From positions 29,152,587 through 29,216,586 of the forward strand of contig OY997653.1 of the NCBI GenBank assembly GCA_963921795.1: a stretch of 64,000 bases of DNA, written 5' to 3'. A program made the position numbers and the translations under genes. Under the pieces are notes generated by a model that searched no databases, was not told the DNA's origin, and saw only the letters and a program-made list of their open reading frames with translations. This stretch comes from Nannobrachium achirus. Its lineage: Eukaryota > Chordata > Actinopteri > Myctophiformes > Myctophidae. Positions 8,160 to 63,880 of the stretch are shown here, piece by piece (the stretch's first letter is position 1; every line of letters begins with the position of its first letter).

Positions 8160-8595
8160 CAGGGGTCTTCAACAGGGGATCCTGTACCCCTAGGGAGTCC
8201 ACAGAGTTACTACAGGGGGTCCTCCAAATCATTATGTGATAGAAACCACTTGAACCCTATGTGGGTCCATATTCTGAGAACTTTAGCCAAAAACAGAAGA
8301 TTTACAAGCTCACAACGCCTCGCGCTGTGAGGCGTTGTGAGCTTGTAGATCGGGCTAAAGAGGTTTGGTGTAGAGGGGGAAAAAAGAGCAAGAGTGATAG
8401 GTCAAGATTAGTAAGTATTGACGGTTCAAGTGGTTGAATATCTGAAAACACAAATTGACATGAATCCAAAATACACTGATTATTGCGCTGTCAAACGATG
8501 CAACTATATGGAATCTCTGCACAGGTTGTGGGGGTCCCTGCTTCATCTCTCTCTCAACTAAGGGGTCCTTGGCCTGAAAACGTTGAAGACCCCTG
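8160..8595. mobile_element. hAT-type MITE (CAGGGGTCTTCAACG ends) carrying a hairpin module
   Basis: Starts CAGGGGTCTTCAAC and ends GTTGAAGACCCCTG. Exact 8-bp duplication GTTTAAAG on both sides (8152-8159 and 8596-8603). A long palindrome sits in the middle at 8281-8360. Related copies: about 2040-2130, 12168-12590, 35906-36305 and 47160-47612. Confidence 0.9.
8281..8360. repeat. Hairpin module inside MITE
   Basis: CTTTAGCC...GGGCTAAAG enclose arms TTTACAAGCTCACAACGCCT and AGGCGTTGTGAGCTTGTAGA. Near-perfect stem with a loop of a few bases. Confidence 0.9.
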
Positions 8596-10436
8596 GTTTA
8601 AAGGCAGGTGCTGAACTTCCAACTACAAAACTTAAAGACAAAAAAGTTCGCACACTGAAGCTCCCTTTTGCATATTTATTTTTGGCACCACCTGAGTGGG
8701 CTGAGCGGCGTTCCGAGAATACTGCTCTTCTTCAGACTAAAAATAAACACTGTGGAAAAATCATTGCACTGTCCAGCGCTTTGCAAGATTAACCTCAAAC
8801 AAAAACAGACAACACAGCAAAAACTAAATATCTTCCCCCTTTGGCCTGTGGTGATAATTATAAGTTGTAGTTATAGTTGCTGTGGTAATGGGCTTCCCTG
8901 GGGGAGTGGAGAGAATGGTAAACAGGCAAAGTGCATGGCCTAAAAATATAGGCTACAGCCACCAAGTACGCTTTGTTTGCATGTAGATGTTTAAATCATA
9001 CTACACACTCATTTCAAATCTATCAACATTAAACTAAGGTGCAGAGCTTTGGTTGAATTTTGCACTGCTATGAGATAAAATAATGTACCATGGCATGTGT
9101 GTATAATATACAGTACATGTTGGCATAGCTGATCTAAAGAGGGAAACGATAATTTTCTTTGTTTGTTTTGTTAATTGCATATCTATAGTCTACAAGACAG
9201 ACAGCATTTCATCAAGTTAACCCTCTGTCGTATTGAATATGCTATAGTATTTCCAATGCACTGCCAGTTTCTCTTTTTTAATTTTGAAGCTTGAATTAGC
9301 ATTGAATTGTATGAAATGTGGTAAAATTAAATTTGACTTGAAAATACAACAAATATCACCAGCATATTTCAATGTGATAACTGAATGATCACATATTACA
9401 AAAAAATATAAAATGTTTGGTGATAATCTATATCATTAGTCATGGATTCACCATTGTACTTGAATTTATGCTATTTGCTTTGGTTCCAACTGCTATGTAA
9501 ATCTTGTGTGTGTGTAAATCTTTGGATTCTGTTAGGATTGTCCTGCAGCATTGTTATGTCCTCATAAACCAAATAAAGTCTTACTTACAAAACTGCTGAT
9601 GACATTTTCGGCATGGTACTGAGTAAACATAAAGAAACAAAAACAAAGTGAGTCCAGATATATTTCAGAGGATTTTAATCATTTTCCATGACAAATGGCA
9701 CAATTTGGGTCATATACTTTCTATTTTCCCTCCCAAATATCTAACTGGCACATTTCCACACCAAGACAAATGATTTGCCTATAAACCCTTTCCACAGCAA
9801 ACATCAAGTGTCAAACACGGCTTTGGAGAACTGTTTTCTTGAGCAAGTAATGATTTACAATGAATTATTTCTTAAAATGCAGAAAAAAAGAGAAAGGAGT
9901 AAAAATCCTCTACAAGGTGCTCTTTGGTACAAATAGGTGACAATTGCTTTACAAAAAGAGACCAAGGCTCTCTTGTGGCAAAATAATTATGACGGTGCGG
10001 TGGACAATAGCCGATGCAGAGGTCTAATGACAAGTGTAGGCAGGGGAGGTTATGAGGCATTGTGAGCTTGTAGATCGGCTATCCTCAGTGAGCAACACAC
10101 AAAGTACTGTACAACTCAGGCTTCAGTTTATTGCCTGACTTCTCGTTCTCGGCTCCCCTCTGAATGAGGTAACGTTAGACAAGAGATATTGACATTTAAT
10201 GTGTATTCTTGGTCCTCTGTCCCATGCTCCACTGGCCAGCCAATAACAGATAGATATCATTTGAACTCCACACCACTCTATCAAAGAGAATACACAATCA
10301 ATTTGACACGTTAGGAATCTTTACTGTTGTGTTTGGAGTGGCAATGGTTGTCTGTTACCATCCATGTAGTAAATCCTAATATCATTTACACATCTGCTTT
10401 ATTCATATCGAATTATTGTGTTTTAGTCTTGTAGGG

Positions 10437-62000: not shown

Positions 62001-63880
62001 CAAAATTTGCCGATTTACAAGCTCACAACGCATTCACATGTTGTGAGCCTTTCTATTTTATTTATATTTATTTAGTTTATGTATAAAATATTTATACATG
62101 TACAGTTTATTTGCCCAACTACACACTTATTATATTTGAAAGAAGTCTTTAGGAGTCTTTTCTGGACTGTGAAAATAGCTGTTTGTTTGTTTGTTGTGAT
62201 TGACTCCCCTGGACCCTGATCCTGTACACTGAGAATAACGGCTGGCTGTAACCTTGTGAAATGTTTACGTGTTTGTTTTGTGATGCCCTTGTCTCTCCTT
62301 CCTGTTATGGGGGTTTGCTCTATATGCCACTAGGGGGCTTATGTCCTGCCTGTACCATACATTAGTTTGTTCATGTACTTCATGTGGCCTAATGGGCATT
62401 TCTGTTGTTTTTTGCAGGTCAAGATATTGTGTTCCAGTGCCTTGGAGAGAGTCTGCTGGACAATGCCTTCATGGGCTACAATGCCTGCATCTTTGCATAT
62501 GGACAGACAGGTGACACATGCCCAGAAACATTGAGATTCAGATTCGTTTTTAGTAACGGAACTCTCCCTTGTGGGTGCTCTGTATTAGCCTGCTTCCAGA
62601 CCAGAGACCCCGCCCACTCTCAGAGTGGACTCTTTCTCTGGTCTGGAGCTTAGTACATGAATCGGTTTTTATTTTCGGCTGTCCAATGAGCGCGCGGGGT
62701 GGGGGTGGGGGTGGGGTGGGTCTAACGAATATCCAATCCGCGCAGCAGTTGAAACGATTCAAACGAAGTTCACACACACAGAGGAAGGCACACACACACA
62801 CACACACACGCACAAGCGCACTGATTTCACCAAGCTGTTTAATGTTGATTACAAGTTTTCTGGTCGCAGTTCTGTGTGGAAGCAGTCACTGGCACAGACA
62901 GAGACACACACACAATCACACACACACTCCCCGACGGTGCGTCGCGTCCACCGTGCGTCGCGATCACTCGCGCGCGGACACGCGCGTGCACGCTCGCAAA
63001 AAAGTCCCCCGTAAATCGCTCAGAATGGAGCACAGTTTCAGACTAAAGCGTGAGCTGAGTCTGAAATCAGGCTAGCTCTGTATCACAAAGAAGATTACTA
63101 CATGTACAGTCATTGTACCTCAATTCTGGCTTTTGTTTAGGCTTAATTGTCTTTTGGTTCAATGTTGTCGGTTCCCATATCTGTATGTTTAAAATAATGG
63201 ACAAAAGTCATCCTTAATACATTTTAGTTTGGCTTGCAGGCCTGGGAAGCAGTGTGATAGAAAATAATAATAATACAAATAAAATAAAAACACCATCTCA
63301 TACTTCATTATGTAACATGTGTGGCCTTTATATCTCTGTGTTATCTTTAGTTCATTAGTTCTGTATGCTCACACAAACATGTAATAGTATGCTAATTACG
63401 GCTGCAACTATTATGTTCTTAAGTCATTAATAGTTCAATTCAATCAATATTGTTTTTATTTGTGCAATTAATTAAAATTACTTTTCCTTCTGAACTTGTA
63501 AATAGCACGTACAGTATGTGTACTTGATACATTACAAAACCGAGATCATTCTTTTAACTAAAAGTCAATTTGATACATTTTCTGTTTAGTGATGACTTAA
63601 TAGACTAATCAATTAATCGTTTCCCTCCTAGTTCTAATATTCTGTAGGTTAACCTTGATTGATCCATGGTTGATGCTTTCTCCGTGTGGTTCTCCTCAGG
63701 TTCTGGTAAGTCCTACACTATGATGGGCTCGGTGGAGCAGCCTGGCCTGAGCCCTCGCCTGTGCAGCTCTCTGTTCAGCAGGATCCAGAAGGCGGTGGGG
63801 GAGGGGGAGGGCTTCACCGTGGAGGTGTCCTACATGGAGATCTACAACGAGAAGGTCCGAGACCTCCTCGATCCCAAAGG
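52991..63880 (+). CDS. kif13b: Kinesin-3 family motor KIF13 (5' part of gene)
   Basis: Six coding exons: 52991-53060, 54093-54186, 61543-61555, 61728-61788, 62418-62510 and 63700-63880. They splice in frame to 170 codons plus two bases and continue past the window. The product begins [20 protein letters not shown], the start of a kinesin motor. P-loop GQTGSGKS is split over exons 5 and 6, and [16 protein letters not shown] is the kinesin L6/beta region. FCWSMDES-type and YAGQDIVF wording (here [18 protein letters not shown]) identifies KIF13. Some stretches look like KIF13A ([14 protein letters not shown]), others like KIF13B (NQPKVFAYD, YAGQDIVF). Linkage to elp3 supports KIF13B, since both human genes lie on 8p21. 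KIF13 proteins are plus-end-directed cargo motors. The ATG context (GGCGCCATGG) is strong. Confidence 0.88.
54093..54186 (+). CDS. kif13b: kif13b exon 2
   Basis: Acceptor [30 protein letters not shown] then [11 protein letters not shown] and AG of arginine; donor CAG/GTAGGG. Confidence 0.9.
54207..54600. mobile_element. Old copy of the hairpin-ended element
   Basis: CTCCACCGGCTGTCAGTCTG and later CACTTTTGCCCTACTC, TGCTCCTACAGATTTTGGCC and GTACACAGTATCTCTA match 5205-6132 with many changes. CTGT repeats replace the CACTCCCTCCGT units. Confidence 0.65.
59470..59643. mobile_element. MITE of the AAAGGAGTAGTTCACC family
   Basis: TTAAAGGAATGGTTCATCCC and GGGGGTGAACTATTCCTTTAA; the interior is mostly a fold-back. 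Confidence 0.82.
60266..60344. repeat. Hairpin module with compensated stem changes
   Basis: ACCGAAAATAGCCGACCTAC ... GGAGGTCTGCTATTTTCG. The usual GATCT/AGATC pair is GACCT/AGGTC, changed in both arms. Confidence 0.92.
61543..61555 (+). CDS. kif13b: kif13b exon 3, 13-nt microexon
   Basis: GTGGCCAG/GAATCAACCAAAG/GTGAGT. It supplies the last base of arginine and N-Q-P-K. Without it the frame between exons 2 and 4 is lost. Confidence 0.85.
61728..61788 (+). CDS. kif13b: kif13b exon 4
   Basis: [20 protein letters not shown] plus G. Acceptor TTGTCTTCAG, donor GCAG/GTTAGT. Confidence 0.9.
62001..62058. repeat. Degenerate hairpin module in kif13b intron 4
   Basis: CACCAAAATTTGCCGATTTA, CAAGCTCACAACGC, then TGTTGTGAGCCTTTCTATTTT. 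The right outer arm is eroded. Confidence 0.65.
62418..62510 (+). CDS. kif13b: kif13b exon 5 (first half of P-loop)
   Basis: [20 protein letters not shown] then [10 protein letters not shown] and G. Acceptor TTTTTTGCAG, donor ACAG/GTGACA. Confidence 0.92.
62511..63699 (+). other. kif13b intron 5 with CpG-rich patch
   Basis: An inverted pair CTCTCAGAGTGGACTC/..., a G-rich run GGGGTGGGGGTGGGGGTGGG (62697-62718), CA repeats, and a CpG-rich stretch at 62930-63000 (GCGCGCGGACACGCGCGTGC). No exon recognised. Confidence 0.55.
63700..63880 (+). CDS. kif13b: kif13b exon 6 (second half of P-loop)
   Basis: [20 protein letters not shown] then [20 protein letters not shown] and [20 protein letters not shown]. 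Donor AAAGG/GTAAGT at 63880/63881; the gene continues beyond the window. Confidence 0.92.

Follow-up and report, generated by a model that had tools for sequence, protein, structure and literature searches.

The window analysed here, 64,000 nucleotides of contig OY997653.1 of Nannobrachium achirus, contains MITEs of several kinds that carry the same hairpin. This hairpin, the module, is a near-perfect palindrome of 75 bp. The features of the window are as follows, with the strand given where one was assigned (TIR, terminal inverted repeat; CM, covariance-model match; IA, inverted arms):

8160..8595, plus strand: host B, hAT-type MITE, TIR CAGGGGTCTTCAAC, duplication GTTTAAAG, with an eroded inner CCACTTGAACC...GGTTCAAGTGG element inside
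8281..8360: module in host B (CM at 8299-8351)
10437..10857, plus strand: host A, hAT-type MITE, TIR CAGTGGTTCTCAAC, 8-bp duplication TTGTAGGG
10539..10611: module in host A (CM, 88.3 bits)
12407..12481: module in a minus-strand copy of host B, with an inner TTAA end on each side
19941..20537: host C, an element flanked by TTAA, its ends being TTAA CCCATTTA and TAAATGGG TTAA
19983..20057: module 1 of host C (IA, CM)
20409..20483: second module of host C, in the opposite orientation to the first
20580..20658: diverged module adjoining a TTAA CCCATTAAAACC end (CM)
22043..22091: centre-deleted module with C-type flanks (CM)
22881..22955: module of the second copy of host A, which begins at 22757 (CM)
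26185..26653: host G, hAT-type MITE CAGTGTTGATTTTG, duplication CCCTAGAC
26380..26454: module of host G, lying 2 bp away from the host centre (IA, CM)
29559..29639: single arm; outward of it lies a TTAA-type end motif (end-motif scan)
32189..32263: module in a second C element, about 31790-32304 (CM)
35184..35226: centre-deleted module in the host A copy at 35061-35414 (CM)
38464..39069: host H, hAT-type ends CAGGGGCGTCACAA and CAGGGGTGTCGCAC, interior C-type with one inner TTAA CCCATTTA end
38552..38616: first module of host H, part of it deleted (CM)
38864..38938: module 2 of host H (IA, CM)
40226..40288: module with shortened centre, its left flank a high-copy repeat
41265..41339: module of the third copy of host A, which begins at 41130 (CM)
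52270..52313: centre-deleted module with a family F flank (CM)
55955..56014: degraded module; outward of it lies a TTAA-type end motif (CM, end-motif scan)
60268..60342: module in host M (CM)

An earlier note on this DNA had listed 13 spans with inverted arms, all of which were confirmed, and had put the recurrence at about 30, whole or as a single arm; its observation is confirmed, and the phenomenon proves to be larger. At up to 3 mismatches the arm ATAGCMGATCTACAWGC occurs 45 times in the window (21 of them exact) and 152 times in 28 stretches of 10 kb picked arbitrarily from this genome, the first 20 of which hold 124 occurrences, compared with 2 in shuffled and 2 in reversed sequence. A covariance model, which the same note had proposed as a check, gave 185 matches at E<=0.1 in the window and the 28 stretches, merged by hand into 95 places. 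The arm is not confined to this locus: the 20-mer GCTTGTAGATCKGCTATTTT, in two variants and without mismatch, is found 98,852 + 98,658 = 197,510 times across the 1.66-Gb genome, and its backward control 0 + 0 times. Extrapolation from a 280-kb sample gives about 0.3 million modules, whole or centre-shortened. No known Rfam RNA matched the window at gathering score, and in the literature text open to searching a 12-mer of the arm occurred once, in an unrelated paper.

Judged by their ends, the hosts fall into about ten kinds, among them hAT-type elements that have 8-bp duplications and elements flanked by TTAA that end in CC; some hosts are nested or mosaic. An 8-bp duplication together with CAG-type TIRs marks hAT elements, and both were found in hosts A, B, G, H and M and in one L031 element, the weakest case (duplication AGTGTTTT, TIR 11/14, T-rich). 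The duplications differ between copies of host B (GTTTAAAG, GTCTAAAG, TCCTATAT, CTCTAGCT) and of host H (TGTATGCT, TATGAAAC, CCCCTAAC), the latter being weak in the window copy because it lies within a CA repeat; a bounded copy of M in L017 has the ends CAGGGACGTGCAGA and CAGGTACGTGCACA and the duplication TCGACAAC. A stricter scan for elements with 8-bp duplications gave none in its reversed control. The different ends and duplications described earlier are real. In a comparison of 15 flank types the flanks are mostly unrelated, with types 3, 8 and 9 clearly related (20-23 bp shared beside the module), 0-9 and 0-10 weakly so, and the remaining pairs at z<=3. Types 3, 8 and 9 join a C-type interior to three different outer ends; family S has B's inner sequence without B's outer ends; and D and the diverged E elements carry the module at the same place, with left flanks that align. 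As to the claim that the module sits at the host centre, it holds for G, whereas element C has two inverted modules near its ends (the consensus of its second being the reverse complement of that of the first), and in the examined copies of A, B and H the module lies about 50-160 bp off centre.

A simpler account than those first offered explains part of this sharing between unrelated hosts, since B's module belongs to a TTAA element nested in a hAT MITE. At L008 and L022, TTAA and CCACTTGAACC, the module, and GGTTCAAGTGG and TTAA follow one another inside hAT MITE B, which has 8-bp duplications of its own; the inner element of L022 has CCGCTTGAACC on one side. TTAA on both sides with matching TIRs, by which we assign elements to the TTAA (piggyBac-like) MITEs, was found only in these two inner elements and in host C at 19941-20537. 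A joined-flank search revealed no B copy without the inner element among 40 scored of 583 candidates, and the nesting therefore rests on structure rather than on an empty site. More widely, the TTAA-CC end motif faces outward in 31 of 150 flanks of whole modules, as against 38 of 2000 random 220-bp stretches; among the 75 whole modules, 26 have it on one side or both and 5 have it on both. It also lies outward of 9 of 104 single arms, and in the wrong-orientation control it occurs in 3 of 254 flanks of whole modules and single arms. For A, D/E, G, M and N, CC-TTAA scans found no convincing pair of TTAA ends enclosing the module.

Changes between the families tend to preserve pairing. Among nine family consensus modules, 155 pair changes are two-sided (134 of them Watson-Crick in both) versus 119 one-sided, and without E and G these become 97 (80 Watson-Crick in both) versus 38; one-sided changes exceed two-sided ones in 10 of 36 family pairs, all ten involving E or G. 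Two-sided cells, counted with three of 43 copies left out, number 119, compared with 48.9 in shuffles and 14-31 in slid structures. This excess favours the idea that the hairpin may help MITEs to multiply. One could go further and regard it as a transferable amplification cassette, such that hAT, TTAA-type and other MITEs would expand on acquiring the 75-bp structure, which we consider unlikely. In a related reading the hairpin itself would raise amplification, through small-RNA interference, as a transposition enhancer or by replication stalling, and any MITE that gained it, by whatever route, would expand; this too we find unlikely. One core across hosts of different end types would be expected under such a model, as would its constant position in D and E and the presence, in each host family examined, of a palindrome that is prone to deletion. 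However, these families were found through the module, an ascertainment that weakens the argument; 6 of 15 structure-defined elements with 8-bp duplications lack it; one hAT-type MITE family carries a different palindrome; and one-sided changes prevail in several pairs with E or G.

The module might instead be an independent mini-element with the boundary form TA/GC...GC/TA, inserting itself with TA duplication into palindromes of an A-run and a T-run, often within MITEs. At least 3 T stand outward at the start of 124 of 150 whole-copy flanks, and in A, B, D, E, N, S and O the palindrome continues beyond the module with letters peculiar to each family (of 25 representatives, 9 rank in the top 5% of cross-family pairs), both in line with such insertion. 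Family N is high-copy and has a hAT-like start. Among 22 of its copies that lack the module, 12 keep clear module remnants, 3 show, exactly or nearly, the junction AAAAATATTTTT expected of a clean empty site (L036, L046 and nearly L035, with the predicted site AGAAGCAAAAATATTTTTGCTTCT), and 7 show neither. Yet the short-junction N2 alleles all differ (10/10), only one being the predicted site, and joined-flank searches, fetched junctions and a short-junction pattern gave no unambiguous pre-insertion site for N. Moreover, in the window and 28 stretches, 37 of the 38 modules scoring at least 70 bits have flanks that turn up again next to another module (for C elements, the element's own second module may supply this recurrence), the 38th lies in the TSD-bounded host G, and none of the 38 lies in single-copy DNA. 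In five of six unassigned copies the flank matched only itself, with one flank tested each and one high-copy flank filling most of the 40 scored places; four of these five unique-flank copies are less well preserved, scoring at most about 62 bits, the fifth being the unscored L003:602. The tiny self-inserting palindrome proposed earlier is not supported, and we hold it to be improbable. Candidates for solo copies or empty sites were set aside as well: N as the high-copy family just described, Q by its repetitive left flank, and an apparent empty site in family F (L028) by the CTATTTTCAAATGG it keeps beside TAG, which looks like a deletion.

Conversion between MITEs through cruciforms, which would both spread the module and restore its palindrome, is quite improbable. 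Recombination at the module was seen once, in a chimera of C and B joined there within a 98% segmental duplication, and two-sided consensus changes would fit. However, the consensus modules of A, B, D, F, M and N all retain an A.G mismatch at stem pair 10 (73-mer numbering), and in that of G the same arm difference appears turned round, where arm-to-arm conversion should have erased it; individual copies keep 22-32 of 32 stem pairs, so that decay in dead copies is not being repaired. Most improbable of all is that every host is a deletion derivative of one ancestor, for which the C-type interior behind three ends and the inner sequence common to B and S may be cited, against flanks related clearly in only three of 15 types and host ends and duplication lengths that differ.

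We favour, with a probability of about 0.5, the view that the module represents a core conserved in an old clan of TTAA MITEs, from which it passed into other MITEs when elements nested in one another or became joined at this core. According to this view, the clan would comprise non-autonomous elements, of which the TTAA-flanked, CC-ended MITEs would be the most recognisable direct carriers of the hairpin. These would land inside hAT-type and other MITEs, the outer element would multiply the pair, and the inner ends would erode; by a second route, elements would be joined to one another at the core. Each host family would then amplify its own version, selection for pairing keeping the hairpin in master copies while copies decay later, and deletions would remove the centre or one arm of the palindrome; at least some of the single arms arose in this way. 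The TTAA element inside hAT B, the inner sequence common to B and S, the end motifs, the C-type interior behind three outer ends, the chimera of C and B joined at the module, the recurring flanks, the paired changes, the remnants in N and the ten differing N2 alleles support this reading. The lack of a convincing TTAA pair in A, D/E, G, M and N, the failure to find a B copy free of the inner element among the 40 scored, the three clean or nearly clean junctions in N, the one-sided changes in pairs with E or G, and the 6 of 15 duplication-bounded elements without the module weaken it. Directly observed are the abundance, the several end types of the hosts, the excess of family differences that keep pairing, the TTAA element in hAT B and the deletion remnants; in which direction the module moved, that selection acted on amplification, and how the core came into A, D/E, G, M and N are inferred.

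Several known systems resemble parts of this picture. The Angel MITEs of zebrafish (Izsvak 1999) are said to be a fish MITE kept as an imperfect palindrome despite divergence; they reportedly form one family and are not known to share a core with families whose ends are unrelated. Made1 is reportedly an independent palindromic element of about 80 bp, whereas for the present module independence is improbable. REPINs, reportedly bacterial and accompanied by a REP-associated tyrosine transposase, are like the module abundant small palindromic repeats, whereas the module is found in a fish. Made1 is a short MITE that gave rise to the hairpin RNA genes of mir-548 (PMC1784062), and REPINs are abundant, small, palindromic and mobile (PMC3116915). 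The coral CMITEs of Acropora offer a precedent: they are described as TTAA-type elements with CC-type ends that differ by family, around a shared internal region of 75 bases that is better conserved than the ends, with about 1600 copies estimated in A. millepora (PMC2872659). The hosts described here likewise have TTAA/CC-type and differing TIRs around one conserved internal region, but their core is a hairpin and also occurs in hAT-type and other hosts; a search of the CMITE text found none of the words palindrome, hairpin, stem and secondary structure (PMC2872659). Highly conserved domains of SINEs are comparable in that the V domain, a part common to elements with different ends, occurs in a SINE and also in the DNA transposon MER6 (PMC6887750). 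The V domain, however, is a retroposon domain, whereas the present module is a hairpin shared among DNA elements only. Among titles and abstract openings, which are no proof of absence, we found no report of one hairpin common to hAT and TTAA MITEs.

Repeat annotation from termini alone can hide a shared part such as this one. One core in differing families bears on why some MITE families reach enormous copy number, and a shared core with family differences that keep pairing makes structure-driven MITE amplification testable. If the cassette model were true, one 75-bp structure, acting through RNA or cruciform DNA, would have driven several independent MITE bursts in one genome. As it stands, our analysis hints that the hairpin may aid the multiplication of these elements, or at least that it travels well with small jumping elements.

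The inverted arms AAAATAGCMGATCTACAAGCTCACAACGC...GCGTTGTGAGCTTGTAGATCKGCTATTTT described in the earlier note are present in all 13 of the 13 spans it listed. Alignment of 40 of the 43 copies having the 65-bp core, which excluded L027:4117 (a segmental duplicate of L016; such handles denote other stretches of the same genome) as well as L007:3894 and L010:923, both more degraded, gave a hairpin of 75 columns in which 36 pairs enclose a 3-nt loop. Pairing cells make up 88.8% of this alignment, two-sided changes occupy 119 cells (shuffling gave 48.9 and sliding the structure 14 to 31), and RNA folding z-scores of six copies range from -11.3 to -16.8. 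A few flank bases specific to the host prolong the palindrome: among 25 representative copies the left-right match ranks in the top 5% of cross-family pairs in nine (A, B, B2, D, D2, E, N, S and O) and below that in the other 16. Genome-wide (1,658,514,493 bp in 564 contigs, the window being G000:C16:29152587-29216586), the 20-mer arm in two variants occurs 197,510 times and its backward control 0 times, in agreement with the 183,821 extrapolated from 28 arbitrary 10-kb stretches (270,674 non-N bases). Extrapolation from these stretches also yields 931,357 arms at up to three mismatches and, from 50 observed, 306,368 whole modules, counted as two arms within 80 bp and including centre-shortened ones; 3 of the 28 contain no arm at three mismatches.

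Outward flanks in the first sample formed 16 clusters of at least two, with 70 flanks unclustered. The differing host ends and duplications that had been claimed were borne out, with 8-bp duplications around the module in several hosts and TTAA in C. Duplications of 8 bp are made by hAT elements and TTAA duplications by piggyBac-like elements.

Host MITE types and their ends or duplications
Host A: CAGTGGTTCTCAAC, with an 8-bp duplication around the module
Host B: CAGGGGTCTTCAAC, with an 8-bp duplication around the module
Host G: CAGTGTTGATTTTG, with an 8-bp duplication around the module
Host H: CAGGGGCGTCACAA/CAGGGGTGTCGCAC, with 8-bp duplications; two copies inside CA repeats
Host M: CAGGGACGTGCAGA, with an 8-bp duplication around the module
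Element in L031: CAGTGGTTGTAAAG/CAGTGGTGGAAAAA, with an 8-bp duplication; the weakest of the set
Host C: TTAA duplication
Host D: ends of ATCGTCGTTGTCGG type; E is a diverged relative, the left flanks of the two aligning
Host N: start CAGGGGTGGGCAACTTTGATG, known from one end
F and S: further flank types

By their ends the hosts are of about ten kinds (A, B, C, D/E, F, G, H, M, N, S), and the direct surroundings of the core of about eight, because H has the interior of C and S that of B. A module-blind scan for 8-bp duplications with TIRs starting CA found 15 elements (0 in the reversed control), of which nine carry a whole module and six carry none; a TTAA scan gave 24 candidates versus 5 in the control, nine of them with a module or arm. 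A different palindrome (arm TGACAGTGTACAAATGGAACCAAATG; window 49505-49702 and 3703-3908) occupies the centre of a further hAT-type MITE family, also flanked by 8-bp duplications. Three E-type modules in L015:721-5099 are spaced at about 2.1-2.2 kb, perhaps as a tandem array with a MITE per unit.

Other features of the window
17309-19930 (+): uninterrupted 873-codon frame encoding an inter-alpha-trypsin inhibitor heavy chain with VIT and VWA domains, intronless and therefore perhaps a retrocopy; AATAAA overlaps its stop codon, and a type C TTAA MITE starts 10 bp downstream
5258-6002 and 45604-46611: shared 12-bp and 62-bp tandem repeats, perhaps within a larger repeated block
48085-48672: tandem array of 11.4 copies of a 53-bp unit
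63750-63880: resembles a kinesin motor exon by eye

How one core came to lie in such different hosts is partly legible in nested elements. The B copy in L008 reads hAT end, TTAA, CCACTTGAACC...module...GGTTCAAGTGG, TTAA, hAT end, and that in L022 is arranged likewise but with CCGCTTGAACC on one side. S has inner sequence homologous to that of B, its inner left end eroded, within different outer ends, and the H copy at window 38464-39069 retains one inner TTAA CCCATTTA end. With two mismatches allowed, a TTAA-CC end motif lies outward of whole modules in 31 of 150 flanks, or 26 of 75 modules (on both sides in five), and outward of single arms in 9 of 104, versus 3 of 254 flanks in the wrong orientation and 38 of 2000 random stretches. 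Against nesting, a composite joined-flank query found no B copy without the inner element: 40 of 583 candidates were scored, and each of these matches stopped at the joint. B, too, probably arose with that element already present. Nesting of TTAA elements accounts for B, S and H, and a join at the core for one chimera, C|B, which is carried by a segmental duplication of 98% identity on two chromosomes (L016:870-2628 and L027:3466-5244) and so represents one event in two copies.

The module is also commonly deleted. Joined N flanks matched contiguously at many places (40 scored of 1883 candidates), and among the 24 N junctions read, two were module-bearing and fetched for that reason, leaving 22 without a full module. 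Clear parts of it remain in 12 of these (L037, L039, L040, L045, L049 and L051-L057, with both arms still in L056), and seven have other short junctions and no clear remnant. The junction AAAAATATTTTT occurs in L036 and L046, and nearly so in L035; in these three, either a deletion between the two TA steps or a genuine empty site could explain the junction. Both N subfamilies contain remnants, and each therefore goes back to ancestors that carried the module. An exact-pattern search for short N2 junctions returned ten alleles genome-wide, no two alike; AAAAATATTTTT is among them, and at least four of the ten come from N copies whose junctions are included above. Single arms are at least partly deletion products.

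Possible selection on pairing was examined between nine family consensus modules in 36 comparisons that are not mutually independent, the N and G consensuses being one copy each and that of E three diverged copies. Two-sided changes numbered 155 (134 Watson-Crick in both) versus 119 one-sided, or 97 (80) versus 38 with E and G left out. Two-sided/one-sided counts were 2/0 for A-B, 3/0 for A-D and B-D, and 5/1 for A-M, and 4/9 for E-G, 3/8 for E-N and 1/5 for F-G; one-sided changes prevailed in ten comparisons, all involving E or G. It is unlikely that the hairpin is a transferable amplification cassette for MITEs of different transposases, and improbable, too, that it was selected because the hairpin itself raises amplification. 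Single copies retain 22 to 32 of 32 pairs, and dead copies therefore decay. In host C the consensus of module 1 is the exact reverse complement of that of module 2. Arm-to-arm conversion in its simple form is disfavoured by an A.G stem mismatch that A, B, D, F, M and N retain and that is turned round in G.

The proposal of a tiny palindromic element inserting by itself is quite improbable, the module being not independent as far as seen: in a covariance-model search of the window and the 28 stretches, of the kind the note had called for, 38 of 95 places at E<=0.1 score at least 70 bits, and 37 of these have flanks that turn up again next to another module (which in C elements may be the second one of that element), the 38th, at window 26380, lying inside the duplication-bounded host G. 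Below 70 bits the proportions are 16/20, 14/19 and 12/18. When six unassigned copies were searched by one flank, five matched only themselves and the sixth, window 40231, was repetitive, its flank taking most of the 40 scored places.

We favour an account in which the module is the core of an old clan of TTAA MITEs, moved by nesting and by joins at the core, routes by which it may also have entered A, D/E, G, M and N. For the TTAA part, the nearest precedent is the coral CMITEs (PMC2872659). In this fish, the module is a conserved, deletion-prone hairpin core common to TTAA-type, hAT-type and other MITEs.
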